This document shows, in pieces, positions 10,928 through 32,262 of a DNA stretch of 37,943 bases. The first letter of the stretch is position 1, and each line of letters starts with the position of its first letter. The notes beneath the pieces were generated by a model. That model was not told the origin of the DNA. It saw only the letters and a program-made list of their open reading frames with translations, and searched no databases. A program made the translations under genes and the position numbers. Source of the stretch: a virus; IMG/VR virus record IMGVR_UViG_3300007734_000660, positions 1-37,943 of that record; one strand, 5' to 3'.

Positions 10928-12460
10928 ATGCCAGTTCAAGCCCCATACAAATTCACAGACCGGCGACGCTGGGCTCCTGGCGCTTCTCAGTTGCTTGAGG
11001 CCGCACGCCCTAACGTGCAGCGCCGAAGCCATCTAGGTTTTGACCGAGACACGCCCCGGTTGATTAGCGGGAGCGACCGCAAGAGCCTACTTTCGATCGG
11101 TCGGTGGCTGTACTGGAACGACGCCATTGTGCGCGGCGCTGTCAACGACATGGCGACCATCGCCGCTGGTAATCTTGCCATGCAGTTTGTTGGCGATGAT
11201 GCGGCGTGGGGACAGAAGGCGGAAGACTGGTTGGCGCAGCACGACCGCTTTTGCTGCATCCGTGGCTATCCCTACACGATGCAGGTACTCACGCGCTTGG
11301 TCGTCATCCACCGGCTGGTTGACGGTGACTGCTTCTTCATCCTTACAGAGGGCGAAAGCGGATACCCGTTGCTGCAATTCATACCGGCTAACCGCGTGCG
11401 TGGTGACTTCGCGAAAGCGGGCATGAACGCGCTTGGAGAGTCCTCCAATGCTGCGTGGGCAGAATATCCGGTGACGGACGGTGTTATCACGGACGACTAC
11501 GGGCGCCCGGTTGCGTACCGAGTGTTCGATGACAAGACGCAGGACTTCACCGACATCGACGCGGCCAACATGGTCCACGTCTACGGGGTAGAAGCTGGAG
11601 ACCAGAATCGCGGGGTGTCTGCGTTGGCTGCTTCTATTGGGGATCTGACGGACCTTGGAGAGACTCGGAAGTTTGAGCTGATCGCGCAGAAACTCGGGTC
11701 TGCAATATCCGTCGTTGAACACAACGAGACGGGAACGGCTCCGGAAGACGCATCCGTTATCATAGGTGGAGATGATAGCCCAGAGAGCGATTCCAAGCCT
11801 CCGGTTTACGGGCAGGAAATGCTTGGCGGCGAGGTCCGATACTTCCGCGCCGGAAGCGGGTCCAAGTTGGACACGCTGAATTTCGACAGGCCCACAAACA
11901 ATCAACGCGAGTTCGCGCGAGAAATTGCGCGCAACGCCCTGCACGGTCTCGGTTGGTCAATCGACTACAGCCTCGACCCGTCCCGCGTTGGCGGCGCTGC
12001 GATGCGGATCGTGGTCGAGAAGTTGAACCGGACGATGGGCGACATTCGCGAGCACACGCTGTTCCCATTCCGGCGACGTGTTGATGGTTGGCGCGTGGCT
12101 AAGGCCGAGAAGGCCGGACTCCTTCCCGCTAGCTCCGGCAACGACTGGCGCTCGTGGATGTACAAGGGCGCGCCGGATCTGACGGCGGACGCAATGTACT
12201 CCGCGCAGGTTATGGAGTTGGAGCTTTCCAAGGGACTCACATCCGAGGCTGTAGAGTGCAACAAGCGCGGCGCGGATTGGGAGACTGTGATGGATCAGAA
12301 AATTGCTTACGCCGTGCGCCTCCGCGACAAGTGCGCCAAGGCCGGAATCGACCCGTCCGAGGTTCGCATCATCGCAAAGCAGTCCACGCAGACTTTCAAC
12401 GACCCGGCGCAGATCGAGGCGCAGCAAAACACGACCACCGACAACAATGCCGACGCCTAA
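10928..12460 (+). CDS. Portal protein, lambda GpB-like
   Basis: 510 residues, near lambda GpB (533). Typical features in order: an N-terminal clip/wing region with YWNDAIVRGAVNDMATIAAG (about 58-77), a region naming the peptide FIPANRVRGDF, HGLGWSIDYSLDPSRVGGAA (GpB signature area, about 338-357), and a Lys-rich C-terminal region with a disordered NTTTDNNADA end. It forms the dodecameric ring through which terminase pumps DNA. The C-terminus overlaps the protease start by 14 bases, a layout shared with lambda-type B-C gene pairs. Confidence 0.93.
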   Translation: MPVQAPYKFTDRRRWAPGASQLLEAARPNVQRRSHLGFDRDTPRLISGSDRKSLLSIGRWLYWNDAIVRGAVNDMATIAAGNLAMQFVGDDAAWGQKAEDWLAQHDRFCCIRGYPYTMQVLTRLVVIHRLVDGDCFFILTEGESGYPLLQFIPANRVRGDFAKAGMNALGESSNAAWAEYPVTDGVITDDYGRPVAYRVFDDKTQDFTDIDAANMVHVYGVEAGDQNRGVSALAASIGDLTDLGETRKFELIAQKLGSAISVVEHNETGTAPEDASVIIGGDDSPESDSKPPVYGQEMLGGEVRYFRAGSGSKLDTLNFDRPTNNQREFAREIARNALHGLGWSIDYSLDPSRVGGAAMRIVVEKLNRTMGDIREHTLFPFRRRVDGWRVAKAEKAGLLPASSGNDWRSWMYKGAPDLTADAMYSAQVMELELSKGLTSEAVECNKRGADWETVMDQKIAYAVRLRDKCAKAGIDPSEVRIIAKQSTQTFNDPAQIEAQQNTTTDNNADA

Positions 12461-26884: not shown

Positions 26885-27213
26885 TCGACATCAACAACAT
26901 CACAATCGGGCAGGCGCGGGAAATCGCGAATGCGTTTGGAAACACCAATTCCGCTCCCGCGTCTACAGCGTCGCGTGAACTCGGGCAACACATAGTTGTC
27001 CTCGATCGGGGGTTCGTCTACGTCGGAAACGTGACCGAGTTGCCCGACCGCGTGTTTATCAAGGACGCGAAAAATATCCGTGTGTGGGGCACTACCAAAG
27101 GACTGGGTGAGCTTCGTGAAGGCCCGTTGACCGGCACCAAACTGGACGCGGTGGGCGAGGTCATCGCCTACCGCGCGGCCATCATCCATCTCGTACCGTG
27201 CAAAGGATTTTAA
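26881..27213 (+). CDS. Conserved phage hypothetical protein upstream of the Gly-repeat gene
   Basis: 110 residues. GQAREIANAFGN at the N-terminus, then VVLDRGFVYVGNV, IRVWGTTKGLGEL and a IIHLVPC end. This chain of motifs belongs to a small beta-rich phage protein family of unknown role that I recall being followed by Gly-Tyr-Ser repeat genes. It ends 16 bases inside that gene. Confidence 0.65.
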   Translation: MIDINNITIGQAREIANAFGNTNSAPASTASRELGQHIVVLDRGFVYVGNVTELPDRVFIKDAKNIRVWGTTKGLGELREGPLTGTKLDAVGEVIAYRAAIIHLVPCKGF

Positions 27214-27569
27214 CTCTCGACGGCTCCGGCTACAGCTACGGCTCCGGCTCCGGCTACGGCTACGGCTCCGGCTCCGGCTCCGGCTACAGCTCCGGCTACG
27301 GCTACAGCTACGGCTCCGGCTACGGCGACGGCTCCGGCTCCGGCTACGGCGACGGCGACGGCGACGGCTACGGCTACGGCTACGGCTCCGGCTACGGCGA
27401 CGGCTACGGCGACGGCTCCGGCTACGGCGACGGCTACGGCGACGGCTACGGCTACGGCTACGGCTCCTGCTACGGCTACGGCGACGGCGACGGCTACGGC
27501 TACGGCTACGGCTACGGCGACGGCGACGGCTACGGCGACGGCTACGGCGACGGCTACGGCGGAAACTGA
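27198..27569 (+). CDS. Gly-X repeat protein (X = Tyr, Ser, Asp)
   Basis: 123 residues from GTG 27198. After MQRILTLD comes an almost perfect Gly-X alternation, with X Tyr, Ser, Asp and one Cys, up to a GGN end. It is encoded by 56 GGC-NNC hexamers (27222-27560), see the repeat entry. Composition resembles flexible self-associating or adhesive protein segments, but no catalytic part exists. The 16-base overlap with the preceding gene supports expression as part of that operon. A role in structure or phase separation is only speculation. Confidence 0.6.
   Translation: MQRILTLDGSGYSYGSGSGYGYGSGSGSGYSSGYGYSYGSGYGDGSGSGYGDGDGDGYGYGYGSGYGDGYGDGSGYGDGYGDGYGYGYGSCYGYGDGDGYGYGYGYGDGDGYGDGYGDGYGGN
27222..27560 (+). 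repeat. Hexanucleotide GGC-NNC tandem array
   Basis: About 56 copies of GGC followed by TAC, TCC, GAC, AGC or TGC. Variants differ by one or two bases, so the DNA is a low-complexity array that is open in several frames on both strands. Copy-number change by slippage would keep the frame. Confidence 0.95.
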
Positions 27570-29454: not shown

Positions 29455-29844
29455 ATGACACCGTTTAACGCAACCCACATCTGTGGAACTCTGGAAGCAT
29501 GCGACACCGTCGCGCGAGGCTCCAAGGGGTTCCAAGTCGCAACGCTCCGAATCCGCATCGGGGACTCGCCAGACGATCCCGCCGTAGTGGCCGAGGCGAC
29601 CCACGAGGCTCGGCACGCGGCAGCCGCGATCCCCATCGGGGCGTCGGTCATCATCCACGGACGGGCGGAGGCCCGCGAGTGGCAAGGGAAATGGCTCCAG
29701 GCGATCCGGATTGAGTCCATCGCGCAGATTGCAGAGGCCACGCCGCGCGATGGCGCAGAGGGGCAGCCACAGCGGCAGGCGACCACTCCCGCGCCAAAGC
29801 CCTCGTCACCTATCGACCACAGCGCGGATGATGTTCCTTTTTGA
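29455..29844 (+). CDS. ssb: Single-stranded DNA-binding protein
   Basis: 129 residues with an OB-fold-like beta region (residues 5-90: CGTLEACDTVARG, then KGFQVATLRIRIG and VIIHGRAEAREWQGK), a Gln/Pro/Ala-rich linker and the acidic tip DDVPF (125-129), the classic SSB tail that binds replication partners. It is shorter than E. coli SSB and lacks some aromatic residues. It protects ssDNA during replication and recombination. The downstream gene starts 14-17 bases before its stop. Confidence 0.85.
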   Translation: MTPFNATHICGTLEACDTVARGSKGFQVATLRIRIGDSPDDPAVVAEATHEARHAAAAIPIGASVIIHGRAEAREWQGKWLQAIRIESIAQIAEATPRDGAEGQPQRQATTPAPKPSSPIDHSADDVPF

Positions 29845-30274
29845 TGTCGTGAAAAAGATTTGGCACCATTACGCGCTTTGGGAAGAAGTTCCCGGAGGGA
29901 TGTGGAGGGATGTCACAGCTAGAGAGGCTGCGGAAATGATGCCAAAAGCAGTCGAGTTCACGGGGGACGCGGAGCGTTACGGAGAAGCAATGCTTCGCGT
30001 CCCGGTTGAGTGGCCTATTTCAACAGAGCACAACCTGTCAGACACTGGGCAAAATAGGAGGGCGTGGATTGGCCATGCTGCGGCTTGCCTTTCGATGGGT
30101 TTTCCTGAATATGTCACGAGAAAGGCTTGGGGATACTTGAGCCAAAAGCAGCAAGACGATGCGAATGAAAAAGCAAGCCAGGCAATCGCGGCTTGGGAAA
30201 GGATACATGAGAGAGAAAATACGGAAGTGGATAAAGCAATGGGAAAGCAGATGTTACTCGCTTGGAATAACTGA
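29828..30274 (+). CDS. Conserved phage protein associated with the IbrA module
   Basis: 148 residues (ATG 29828; ATG 29831 also possible). EFTGDAERYGEAMLRVPVEW, HNLSDTGQNRRAWIGHAAAC and TRKAWGYLSQKQQDDAN are motifs that recur together in phage proteins of unknown role, often beside IbrA-like genes. It is AT-richer than the surrounding early genes, as are the next three. Possibly a partner in the same process. Confidence 0.6.
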   Translation: MMFLFDVVKKIWHHYALWEEVPGGMWRDVTAREAAEMMPKAVEFTGDAERYGEAMLRVPVEWPISTEHNLSDTGQNRRAWIGHAAACLSMGFPEYVTRKAWGYLSQKQQDDANEKASQAIAAWERIHERENTEVDKAMGKQMLLAWNN

Positions 30275-30455
30275 CGAGGCGCCTTCAAGACTTGAGAGCA
30301 GCGGGAGAGTGCCGTCGTATAGAACCGTGTGCCTTGCGATACTCAAGAACGACGTGAATTTGAAGTCCTTGGGATTTTCGCCAACGCCATGCACGGCATA
30401 CATGGCGATAAAGAGAATTGAAATCGAAGCCAGGAAGCCAAAGGATGTCGCATGA
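30207..30455 (+). CDS. Stand-alone DUF3440-like small protein
   Basis: 82 residues from ATG 30207, preceded by GGAAAGGA; a longer start at 30159 is possible. The segment VPSYRTVCLAILKNDVNLKS, then LGFSP, is clearly related to IPTYKRMCVCIMKNDHLCKY, LGF-like end, of the IbrA product (about residues 380-402). It is therefore a detached version of the C-terminal domain of that protein. Its stop overlaps the IbrA start (ATGA). Likely binds the same partner or competes for it. Confidence 0.7.
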   Translation: MREKIRKWIKQWESRCYSLGITDEAPSRLESSGRVPSYRTVCLAILKNDVNLKSLGFSPTPCTAYMAIKRIEIEARKPKDVA

Positions 30456-31750
30456 ATGTTTACCAAGCCGCGAAAGACAGGGTGGCGAAGGTGTTTTCCG
30501 AGTTCGATAACGTGTACGTTTCTTTTTCCGGAGGAAAAGATTCGGGCGTTCTTTTGAACCTTTGCATCGACCATATCAGGCAAAACGCACCGCACAGAAG
30601 AATCAGTGTGTTTCACATAGACTACGAGGCGCAGTACCAGATGACGACGGACTATGTGGACCGGGAGCTTGGCAAGAATCGCGACGTGATGGACGTGTAC
30701 CGGATCTGTCTGCCAATCGCCGCGAACTGCGCCACAAACATGGAGCGCGGGTTTTGGATTCCATGGGACCAAGACGCAAAGGATTTGTGGGTCCGCGATC
30801 TACCCAAAGAATCAGTGAACGAGTCAAACCATGAGTTCCCGTGGTTCACTAAGGGGATGTGGGATTACGACCTACAAGAAAGGTTTGCAGGATGGCTACA
30901 CAAGAAGAACAAGGCGAAGAATACGGCGTGCATGGTTGGCATAAGAACAGACGAAAGCCTGAACCGATGGCGCGCCATTCATTCGGACAAAAACAAAAAC
31001 AAACTCGGCTCATTCGCTTGGACATTGCAGATAGAAAAGAACGTCTATAGCGCATACCCCATATTCGACTGGAAGGTTGATGATGTGTGGATTGCAAACG
31101 GAAGGTGCGGTTGGGAGTACAACAGGCTTTACGACCTGTTTTGGAAGGCTGGTGTTCCGGTCAGCAAGATGCGGGTGGCAAGCCCGTTTCACGAGTGTGG
31201 CTTGGAAAACCTCAAGCTATACAAGGTAATTGACCCGAAGAACTGGGCCAAGATGGTTGGAAGAACAAACGGCGTAAACTTTGCGGGAATCTACGGCGGA
31301 ACGACGGCGATGGGGTGGAAATCAATCAAACTTCCTCCAGGTCACACATGGAAGAGTTACATGGAATTTCTATTGTCAACGCTCCCAAAGGAGGCGGCGG
31401 AATCGTACAAAAAAAAACTGGAAACAAGCGTCGCTTTTTGGCGGGACAAAGGTGGCTGCCTTTCCGTTGAGTTGATAGCAAAGCTTCGGGCAATGAATAT
31501 CCCGATAAAGGTCGAGGAATCAACAAACTATAAAACAGACAAAAAGCCTGTCCGAATGGAGTACCTTGACGACATTGACATAGAAGAGTTTCGAGAGATA
31601 CCAACCTACAAAAGGATGTGCGTGTGCATAATGAAAAACGATCACCTTTGCAAATACATGGGGTTTTCACTGACGAAGACGGAAACGCAATTGCGTCAGG
31701 AGGCTGAAAGGCAATATGGCGCGATTGAGTTTGAAAGGAGTCACCAATGA
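30452..31750 (+). CDS. ibrA: IbrA-like PAPS-reductase-family PP-loop protein
   Basis: 432 residues. PP-loop ATP-pyrophosphatase motif VSFSGGKDSG (23-32) near the N-terminus, a long middle region (FHIDYEAQYQ; CMVGIRTDESLNRW), and a C-terminal DUF3440-type domain ending ...IPTYKRMCVCIMKNDHLC. This is the IbrA/phosphoadenosine-phosphosulfate-reductase-like group, homologous to DndC in fold. In E. coli prophages ibrA is paired with ibrB and affects expression of Ig-binding proteins. The chemistry is unproven; adenylate-forming or sulfur-linked modification is possible. Its stop overlaps the IbrB start, so the pair is co-translated. Confidence 0.85.
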   Translation: MNVYQAAKDRVAKVFSEFDNVYVSFSGGKDSGVLLNLCIDHIRQNAPHRRISVFHIDYEAQYQMTTDYVDRELGKNRDVMDVYRICLPIAANCATNMERGFWIPWDQDAKDLWVRDLPKESVNESNHEFPWFTKGMWDYDLQERFAGWLHKKNKAKNTACMVGIRTDESLNRWRAIHSDKNKNKLGSFAWTLQIEKNVYSAYPIFDWKVDDVWIANGRCGWEYNRLYDLFWKAGVPVSKMRVASPFHECGLENLKLYKVIDPKNWAKMVGRTNGVNFAGIYGGTTAMGWKSIKLPPGHTWKSYMEFLLSTLPKEAAESYKKKLETSVAFWRDKGGCLSVELIAKLRAMNIPIKVEESTNYKTDKKPVRMEYLDDIDIEEFREIPTYKRMCVCIMKNDHLCKYMGFSLTKTETQLRQEAERQYGAIEFERSHQ

Positions 31751-32262
31751 GCGAGTTCAAGTCTCCGGTTTACAGCGTCAAAGCCGTTCCAATCGAAAAG
31801 GTGCGGGCAAACAGCTACAACCCAAACAGTGTAGCGCCACCTGAAATGGACCTGTTGGAGGTGTCAATTTGGGAGGATGGGTTCACGATGCCGGTCGTGT
31901 GTTACTATTTGAAAGATGATGATGTCTACGAGATTGTGGACGGATACCATCGATACACGACGCTCAAGACGAGCAAGCGCATATTTGAAAGAGAAAAGGG
32001 ACTCTTGCCGGTTGTTGTTATCGACAAGGACCCTTCCAATCGGATGGCGTCCACCATTCGACACAACAGGGCGCGCGGATCTCACTCTATCGACTTGATG
32101 TCTAACATCGTCGCGGAGCTTACAAGGGCAGGGATGTCGGATGCTTGGATTCTAAAGCACGTCGGAATGGATAAGGACGAGCTTTTGAGGCTGAAGCAAA
32201 TCACCGGCATTGCAGACCTTTTCAAGGACAAGGAATTTTCGGAAGCATTCGATGAAAAGTGA
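31747..32262 (+). CDS. ibrB: IbrB-like ParB-domain protein
   Basis: 171 residues from ATG in the IbrA stop. ParB core: NPNSVAPPEMDLLEVSI (25-41), DGYHRYTTL (ParB box, about 66-74) and RHNRARGSHS (about 105-114), the (CTP-binding) ParB/Srx fold pattern. It is the partner of IbrA in prophages. Probable DNA-associated adaptor or nucleotide-binding component. No HTH domain follows. Confidence 0.85.
   Translation: MSEFKSPVYSVKAVPIEKVRANSYNPNSVAPPEMDLLEVSIWEDGFTMPVVCYYLKDDDVYEIVDGYHRYTTLKTSKRIFEREKGLLPVVVIDKDPSNRMASTIRHNRARGSHSIDLMSNIVAELTRAGMSDAWILKHVGMDKDELLRLKQITGIADLFKDKEFSEAFDEK

Follow-up and report, generated by a model that had tools for sequence, protein, structure and literature searches.

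IbrA/IbrB of a viral genome with a helical protein and a stand-alone DUF3440 tail: a candidate adapter to the sliding clamp

Hundreds of phage records contain an IbrA/IbrB pair, as does E. coli. The IbrA/IbrB of E. coli prophages and the DUF3440 protein YbdN of strain K-12 have the same arrangement as the pair described here, a PP-loop protein with a DUF3440 domain encoded beside a ParB-like protein. In the literature that we found, IbrAB is described only as a pair of co-activators of prophage gene expression, and no mechanism is given. ParB-like partners are reported in DNA-modification settings, including CmoX neighbourhoods (PMC12783734) and, as cited in PMC12839542, DpdB. The N-terminal domain of IbrA has a fold in common with CysH/CysD, FAD synthase, TilS and TtuA. 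Among DNA enzymes that are tethered to the sliding clamp (DNMT1-PCNA, MutL and EndoMS; PMC9690074), the clamp on newly made DNA recruits the enzyme through a short tag; the bacterial clamp-binding consensus is QL(S/D)LF or, more generally, QxxLF (PMC9690074, PMC12309361).

The window analysed here is a stretch of 37,943 nucleotides (positions 1 to 37,943 of IMG/VR record IMGVR_UViG_3300007734_000660) in which IbrA and IbrB are preceded by two genes, designated p148 and the free tail. The name IbrAB is established in the literature; no description of p148 or the free tail was encountered in a search that mainly covered open-access journal papers. The IbrA of phage PhiR5_2 ends in a short-type tail that has the conserved Cys, whereas the window IbrA is of the long type and, unlike the window, the PhiR5_2 locus has neither p148 nor a free tail. 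The locus comprises the following features.

29828..30274, + strand: p148, an open reading frame of 148 residues, first gene of the accessory pair, from a virus-specific all-helical family
30207..30455, + strand: the free tail, a free DUF3440 C-terminal domain of 82 aa (Pfam DUF3440, co-occurrence, tree)
30309..30377, + strand: core motif of the free tail, VPSYRTVCLAILKNDVNLKSLGF (alignment and counts)
30452..31750, + strand: IbrA of the "long" type, a PP-loop (PAPS-reductase-like) ATPase with a complete DUF3440 domain, 432 aa (Pfam)
30527..30544, + strand: PP-loop signature SGGKDS of IbrA (sequence)
31598..31666, + strand: IbrA's own C-terminal motif, IPTYKRMCVCIMKNDHLCKYMGF, with its conserved Cys (codon 31649-31651; alignment)
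31747..32262, + strand: IbrB, a ParB/sulfiredoxin-fold protein of 171 aa (PHROG 2159 match)

The four-gene locus in the window

The tail open reading frame starts 68 bases inside p148, and a second possible in-frame start, an ATG at 30159, would give a tail of 98 aa. Four-base overlaps (ATGA) are present at both the tail/IbrA and the IbrA/IbrB junctions, suggesting that the tail and IbrA may be translationally coupled. AG-rich sequences resembling ribosome-binding sites precede the starts of the tail (GGGAAAGGATAC-ATG), IbrA (AAAGGATGTCGC-ATG) and IbrB (AAAGGAGTCACCA-ATG). As the earlier note had reported, the GC content of the block is below that of its surroundings: at 0.493 versus 0.580 for the window it lies at the low extreme, ranking 3 of 711 among sliding windows of equal length. 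Pfam places the block among genes of replication and recombination, including RusA, DnaB helicase and DUF1376.

IbrA of the window is a complete protein comprising a PP-loop domain and the whole of DUF3440, with nothing missing. It has each of the features by which an IbrA was recognized, namely the PP-loop, the PAPS_reduct match (48.2 bits, cut-off 22.5) and the full DUF3440 domain (302.9 bits, cut-off 25, covering profile positions 1-181 of 182). In the SGGKDS signature the S, second G, K, D and S are invariant in 59 aligned IbrAs, and the long-type protein has an insertion ahead of its own tail. The AlphaFold2 model of a homologous IbrA, from locus L043, matches CysH, CysD, FAD synthase and TilS in Foldseek, and by analogy with these PP-loop folds the IbrAB reaction is suggested to be adenylation of a substrate. 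IbrA of the window has only 12.7 bits against the CysH subfamily profile, for which the cut-off is 165.1. An ECGL sequence in the protein recalls the CysH catalytic motif, a reading that was dismissed since ECGL is not conserved in other IbrAs. IbrB, whose gene adjoins that of IbrA, matches the ParB-like PHROG 2159 at E 1e-76 and scores 23.3 bits with Pfam ParB_N, slightly under the cut-off of 26.3. Searches of PDB sequences with IbrA, IbrB and p148 gave no matches.

The earlier note had likened the pair to DndC/DndB. A PP-loop ATPase is common to both and IbrA of the window is weakly DndC-like (PADLOC E 2e-8), but its score against the DndC equivalog is 25.3 bits versus a cut-off of 290.4. 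PADLOC gave no match for IbrB (no DndB), p148 or the tail, and no DndA, D or E was found among the Pfam-tested neighbours of the block, which are replication and structural genes. Membership of the Dnd phosphorothioation system was therefore rejected on the DndC score and the missing DndB and DndD/E partners.

The p148 family is undescribed and virus-specific. It belongs to no Pfam, PHROG, NCBIfam or PADLOC family, and just scattered weak profile matches were obtained across 78 members. The AlphaFold2 model of p148 is all-helical (pLDDT 94.9) and has no fold match among PDB structures at E<=0.001 in Foldseek; among viral models there is one significant match, an unnamed protein of 116 aa with 47% identity that is probably the homologue from phage XCL1123. 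The model may therefore represent a new fold, allowing that Foldseek can miss similarities between helical proteins.

Recurrence of the cassette and origin of the free tail

Co-occurrence of the four genes elsewhere, which the earlier note had asked for, was found in several gene orders. No fewer than three lineages of isolated phages carry the set, as do scores of IMG/VR contigs; in Pseudoalteromonas phage XCL1123 and mycobacteriophages Gaia and Nebkiss the order differs from that in the window. A tblastn search of 50,697 phage records located p148 in just five phages (six records), XCL1123, Gaia, Nebkiss, Amjad_SA and Mwe-JY13, all with IbrA. None was found in the plasmids searched, and a single-pattern scan of 84,980 genomes gave one. 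In IMG/VR, 275 p148 relatives were identified among 310 candidates. IbrA is present in 78 of 80 IMG/VR loci seeded with p148, the remaining two being cut by a contig end. In the reciprocal search, seeded with the tail, all 95 new loci contained p148 and 90 also contained IbrA. Of the five without IbrA, four are truncated within the module, where the contig starts, and the fifth (L167) has only a fragment of p148, with no IbrA or IbrB in the locus DNA examined. Tails were recovered with alignment queries, a scan of viral contigs with the single 82-aa window tail having given no match.

The loci have two architectures. In one, which has three different gene orders, a long IbrA is accompanied by both p148 and a free tail; in the other, a short IbrA, whose own C terminus is the same kind of tail, is accompanied by p148 and no free tail. 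Among distinct rows of the IbrA tree, a free tail is present with 50 of 51 long IbrAs that have p148, none of 41 long IbrAs without p148, and none of 29 short IbrAs with p148. The lone exception, locus L089, encodes a long IbrA, IbrB, p148 and then, directly after p148, a complete short IbrA. Thus a single short-type tail, either free or within IbrA, is present in each of the complete p148 loci examined. The tree forces at least five gains or losses; the free tail is always encoded beside p148, and joint gain or loss of the two is partly expected from linkage because their genes usually overlap. At L089 (208-4123) a single operon encodes two different IbrAs, a long and a short one, which flank IbrB and p148. 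A cupin resembling ectoine synthase (PF06339, up to 130 bits; e.g. L003:3717-4109 and L004:4384-5283) is encoded between IbrA and IbrB or, in 25 loci, as a fusion with IbrB; it was confined to free-tail loci, being present in 40 of 73 and absent from all 89 of the remaining IbrA loci (counts include redundant loci).

The motif that the earlier note had recognized in both the small protein and the C terminus of IbrA reflects real homology. The free tail matches Pfam DUF3440 at E 4e-6 with 27.2 bits, above the cut-off of 25, and aligns with profile positions 140-176 of 182, an alignment that had been set beforehand as the test of the idea. The description of the locus as a split IbrA is unsupported, given that IbrA lacks nothing and that the free tail comes from another IbrA lineage. 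In the tail tree, which is based on a short alignment with a midpoint root, the free tails form one clade (100/94) inside a larger group (100/99) to which the short-IbrA tails also belong, and long-IbrA tails stand apart from this group; rows L150 and L098 are ends of short IbrAs and were grouped as such in the Cys counts below. The tree therefore rules out the free tail as a duplicate of the adjacent IbrA's own tail. MAFFT pulled the free tails onto IbrA's own tail, and they were excluded from that IbrA alignment. Judged by sequence, the free tail is an extra stand-alone copy of the C-terminal domain of a short IbrA, and it looks like the remnant, or the source, of a second IbrA located after p148. 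PHROG 15645 (a profile of 202 aa), which is matched by both 30207-30455 and 30452-31750 of the window, unites the central part of DUF3440 with the region of the free tail, and so there may be proteins consisting of DUF3440 only that bridge short IbrA and the free tail.

The Cys of the KNDHxCK/NDYWCK sequence, a putative catalytic residue, is present in about 94% of IbrA's own tails and in none of 54 aligned free tails; in the window the corresponding residue is Leu (codon 30360-30362). Free tails have also mostly lost the Arg that lies further upstream, in the (S/T)(W/Y)(K/R)R motif. The core N, D and G are conserved in 52-54 of the 54, and in non-overlapping codons the median dN/dS is 0.33, with most pairs near saturation.

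The C-terminal motif and the role of the accessory pair

Many free tails end in a sequence resembling the clamp-binding consensus. The rule applied was QxxLF or QLxLxL within the last 11 residues; it was written after part of the data had been seen and held in a second set of tails. The motif was found in 38 of 53 tails in the first set (shuffled sequences: mean 0.98, maximum 4) and in 28 of 36 other tails in the second (mean 0.9, maximum 5). Over all free tails the count is 66/90, compared with 18/1179 (1.5%) for neighbouring open reading frames, and in 60 of the 66 the motif starts 5 or 6 residues before the C terminus. Free-tail ends include QMEMF, as in the SQMEMF of phage XCL1123, and QLKLF. 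It is present in 0/91 long IbrAs and 1/115 IbrBs; p148 C termini carry it in 15/86 cases versus 1.65 expected. In L043, one of these 15, the tail is in frame with IbrA and p148 carries QLGLF. In one further locus, a single metagenomic contig (L117:4071-5336), the reading frame of the tail continues without a break into that of a phage DNA polymerase processivity factor (phrog_947, E 1.3e-33). The remaining 24 of the 90 tails have no motif. These include that of the window, which ends in ARKPKDVA, and the window p148, which ends in QMLLAWNN, does not fit the rule either; a tether here would be lost, unrecognizable or supplied otherwise. In L242 (5001-5651) the reading frame of the free tail extends into a second domain, roughly 130 aa long, that has no Pfam match.

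We consider it rather probable that p148 and the free tail are a two-gene accessory cassette of the IbrA/IbrB enzyme pair, an adapter linking the chemistry of IbrAB to the replicative sliding clamp. The free tail would be a catalytically depleted domain copy that works with p148 as one unit; the two would bind the IbrA/IbrB assembly, with the tail holding p148 to it, and in most family members the C-terminal motif of the tail would tie the assembly to the clamp. The ATP-dependent reaction, in which a nucleotide or DNA is probably modified by adenylation, would then be directed at phage DNA that has just been replicated. A clamp-binding tag on the accessory protein suggests that IbrAB may act on freshly copied DNA; it would work like the tags of DNMT1-PCNA, MutL and EndoMS, with the difference that the tag here is on a separate domain-copy protein and in those systems on the enzyme itself. 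An AlphaFold2 model of a natural tail-IbrA fusion was good for IbrA and of low confidence for the tail, which it did not place on IbrA with confidence. A more specific form, which we regard as doubtful, is hypermodification of DNA coupled to replication, in which IbrA would adenylate a base or nucleotide with the assistance of IbrB, p148 and the tail would dock the enzyme on the clamp and, in one large branch, the cupin would close a ring on the added group.

Other roles would account for part of these data. An adapter that has no contact with the clamp is possible, if somewhat unlikely: p148 and the tail would form only a structural or regulatory sub-complex with IbrAB, the tail replacing the C-terminal domain of a second IbrA in an oligomer, and the C-terminal motifs would reflect contact with some other protein or variation between lineages. 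Tails of the window type without the motif, the two IbrAs in one operon at L089 and the provision of the same tail domain in cis by short IbrAs are consistent with such a role, whereas the motif in 66 of 90 tails against a background of 1.5% and the tail fused to a clamp argue for the tethered adapter. The fit of the motif to the bacterial DnaN-binding consensus, the precedent of SocB as a clamp-blocking protein (PMC9690074) and the restriction of p148 to viruses would also suit proteins that bind the host clamp so as to block or divert replication of the host, IbrAB then having host DNA or nucleotides as its target; we judge this improbable, since a plain clamp poison would need neither the tight linkage to IbrA and IbrB nor a tail homologous to an IbrA domain.

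That the free tail is a decaying piece of a deleted short IbrA, kept only through its overlap with p148 or IbrA, is scarcely credible. Its descent from short-IbrA tails, the loss of the putative catalytic Cys and the resemblance of L089 to an intact arrangement would be expected of such a remnant, but the core N, D and G are kept, the median dN/dS is 0.33 (most pairs being near saturation), the free-tail clade is deep and the motif is at the exact C terminus. The adapter tethered to the clamp is preferred; a sub-class of IbrAB linked to a new helical family and to the sliding clamp would provide the first concrete and testable place of action of these proteins, newly replicated DNA, and XCL1123, Gaia, Nebkiss, Amjad_SA and Mwe-JY13 are named isolates in which to look for the chemistry.

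Elsewhere in the window, positions 1-24000 have no megablast match among the 50,697 phage records. A lambda-type portal gene is located at 10928-12457, and at 27198-27569 the hexanucleotide ACGGCT is repeated in 57 copies, encoding an open reading frame of 123 aa rich in Tyr, Gly, Ser and Asp.
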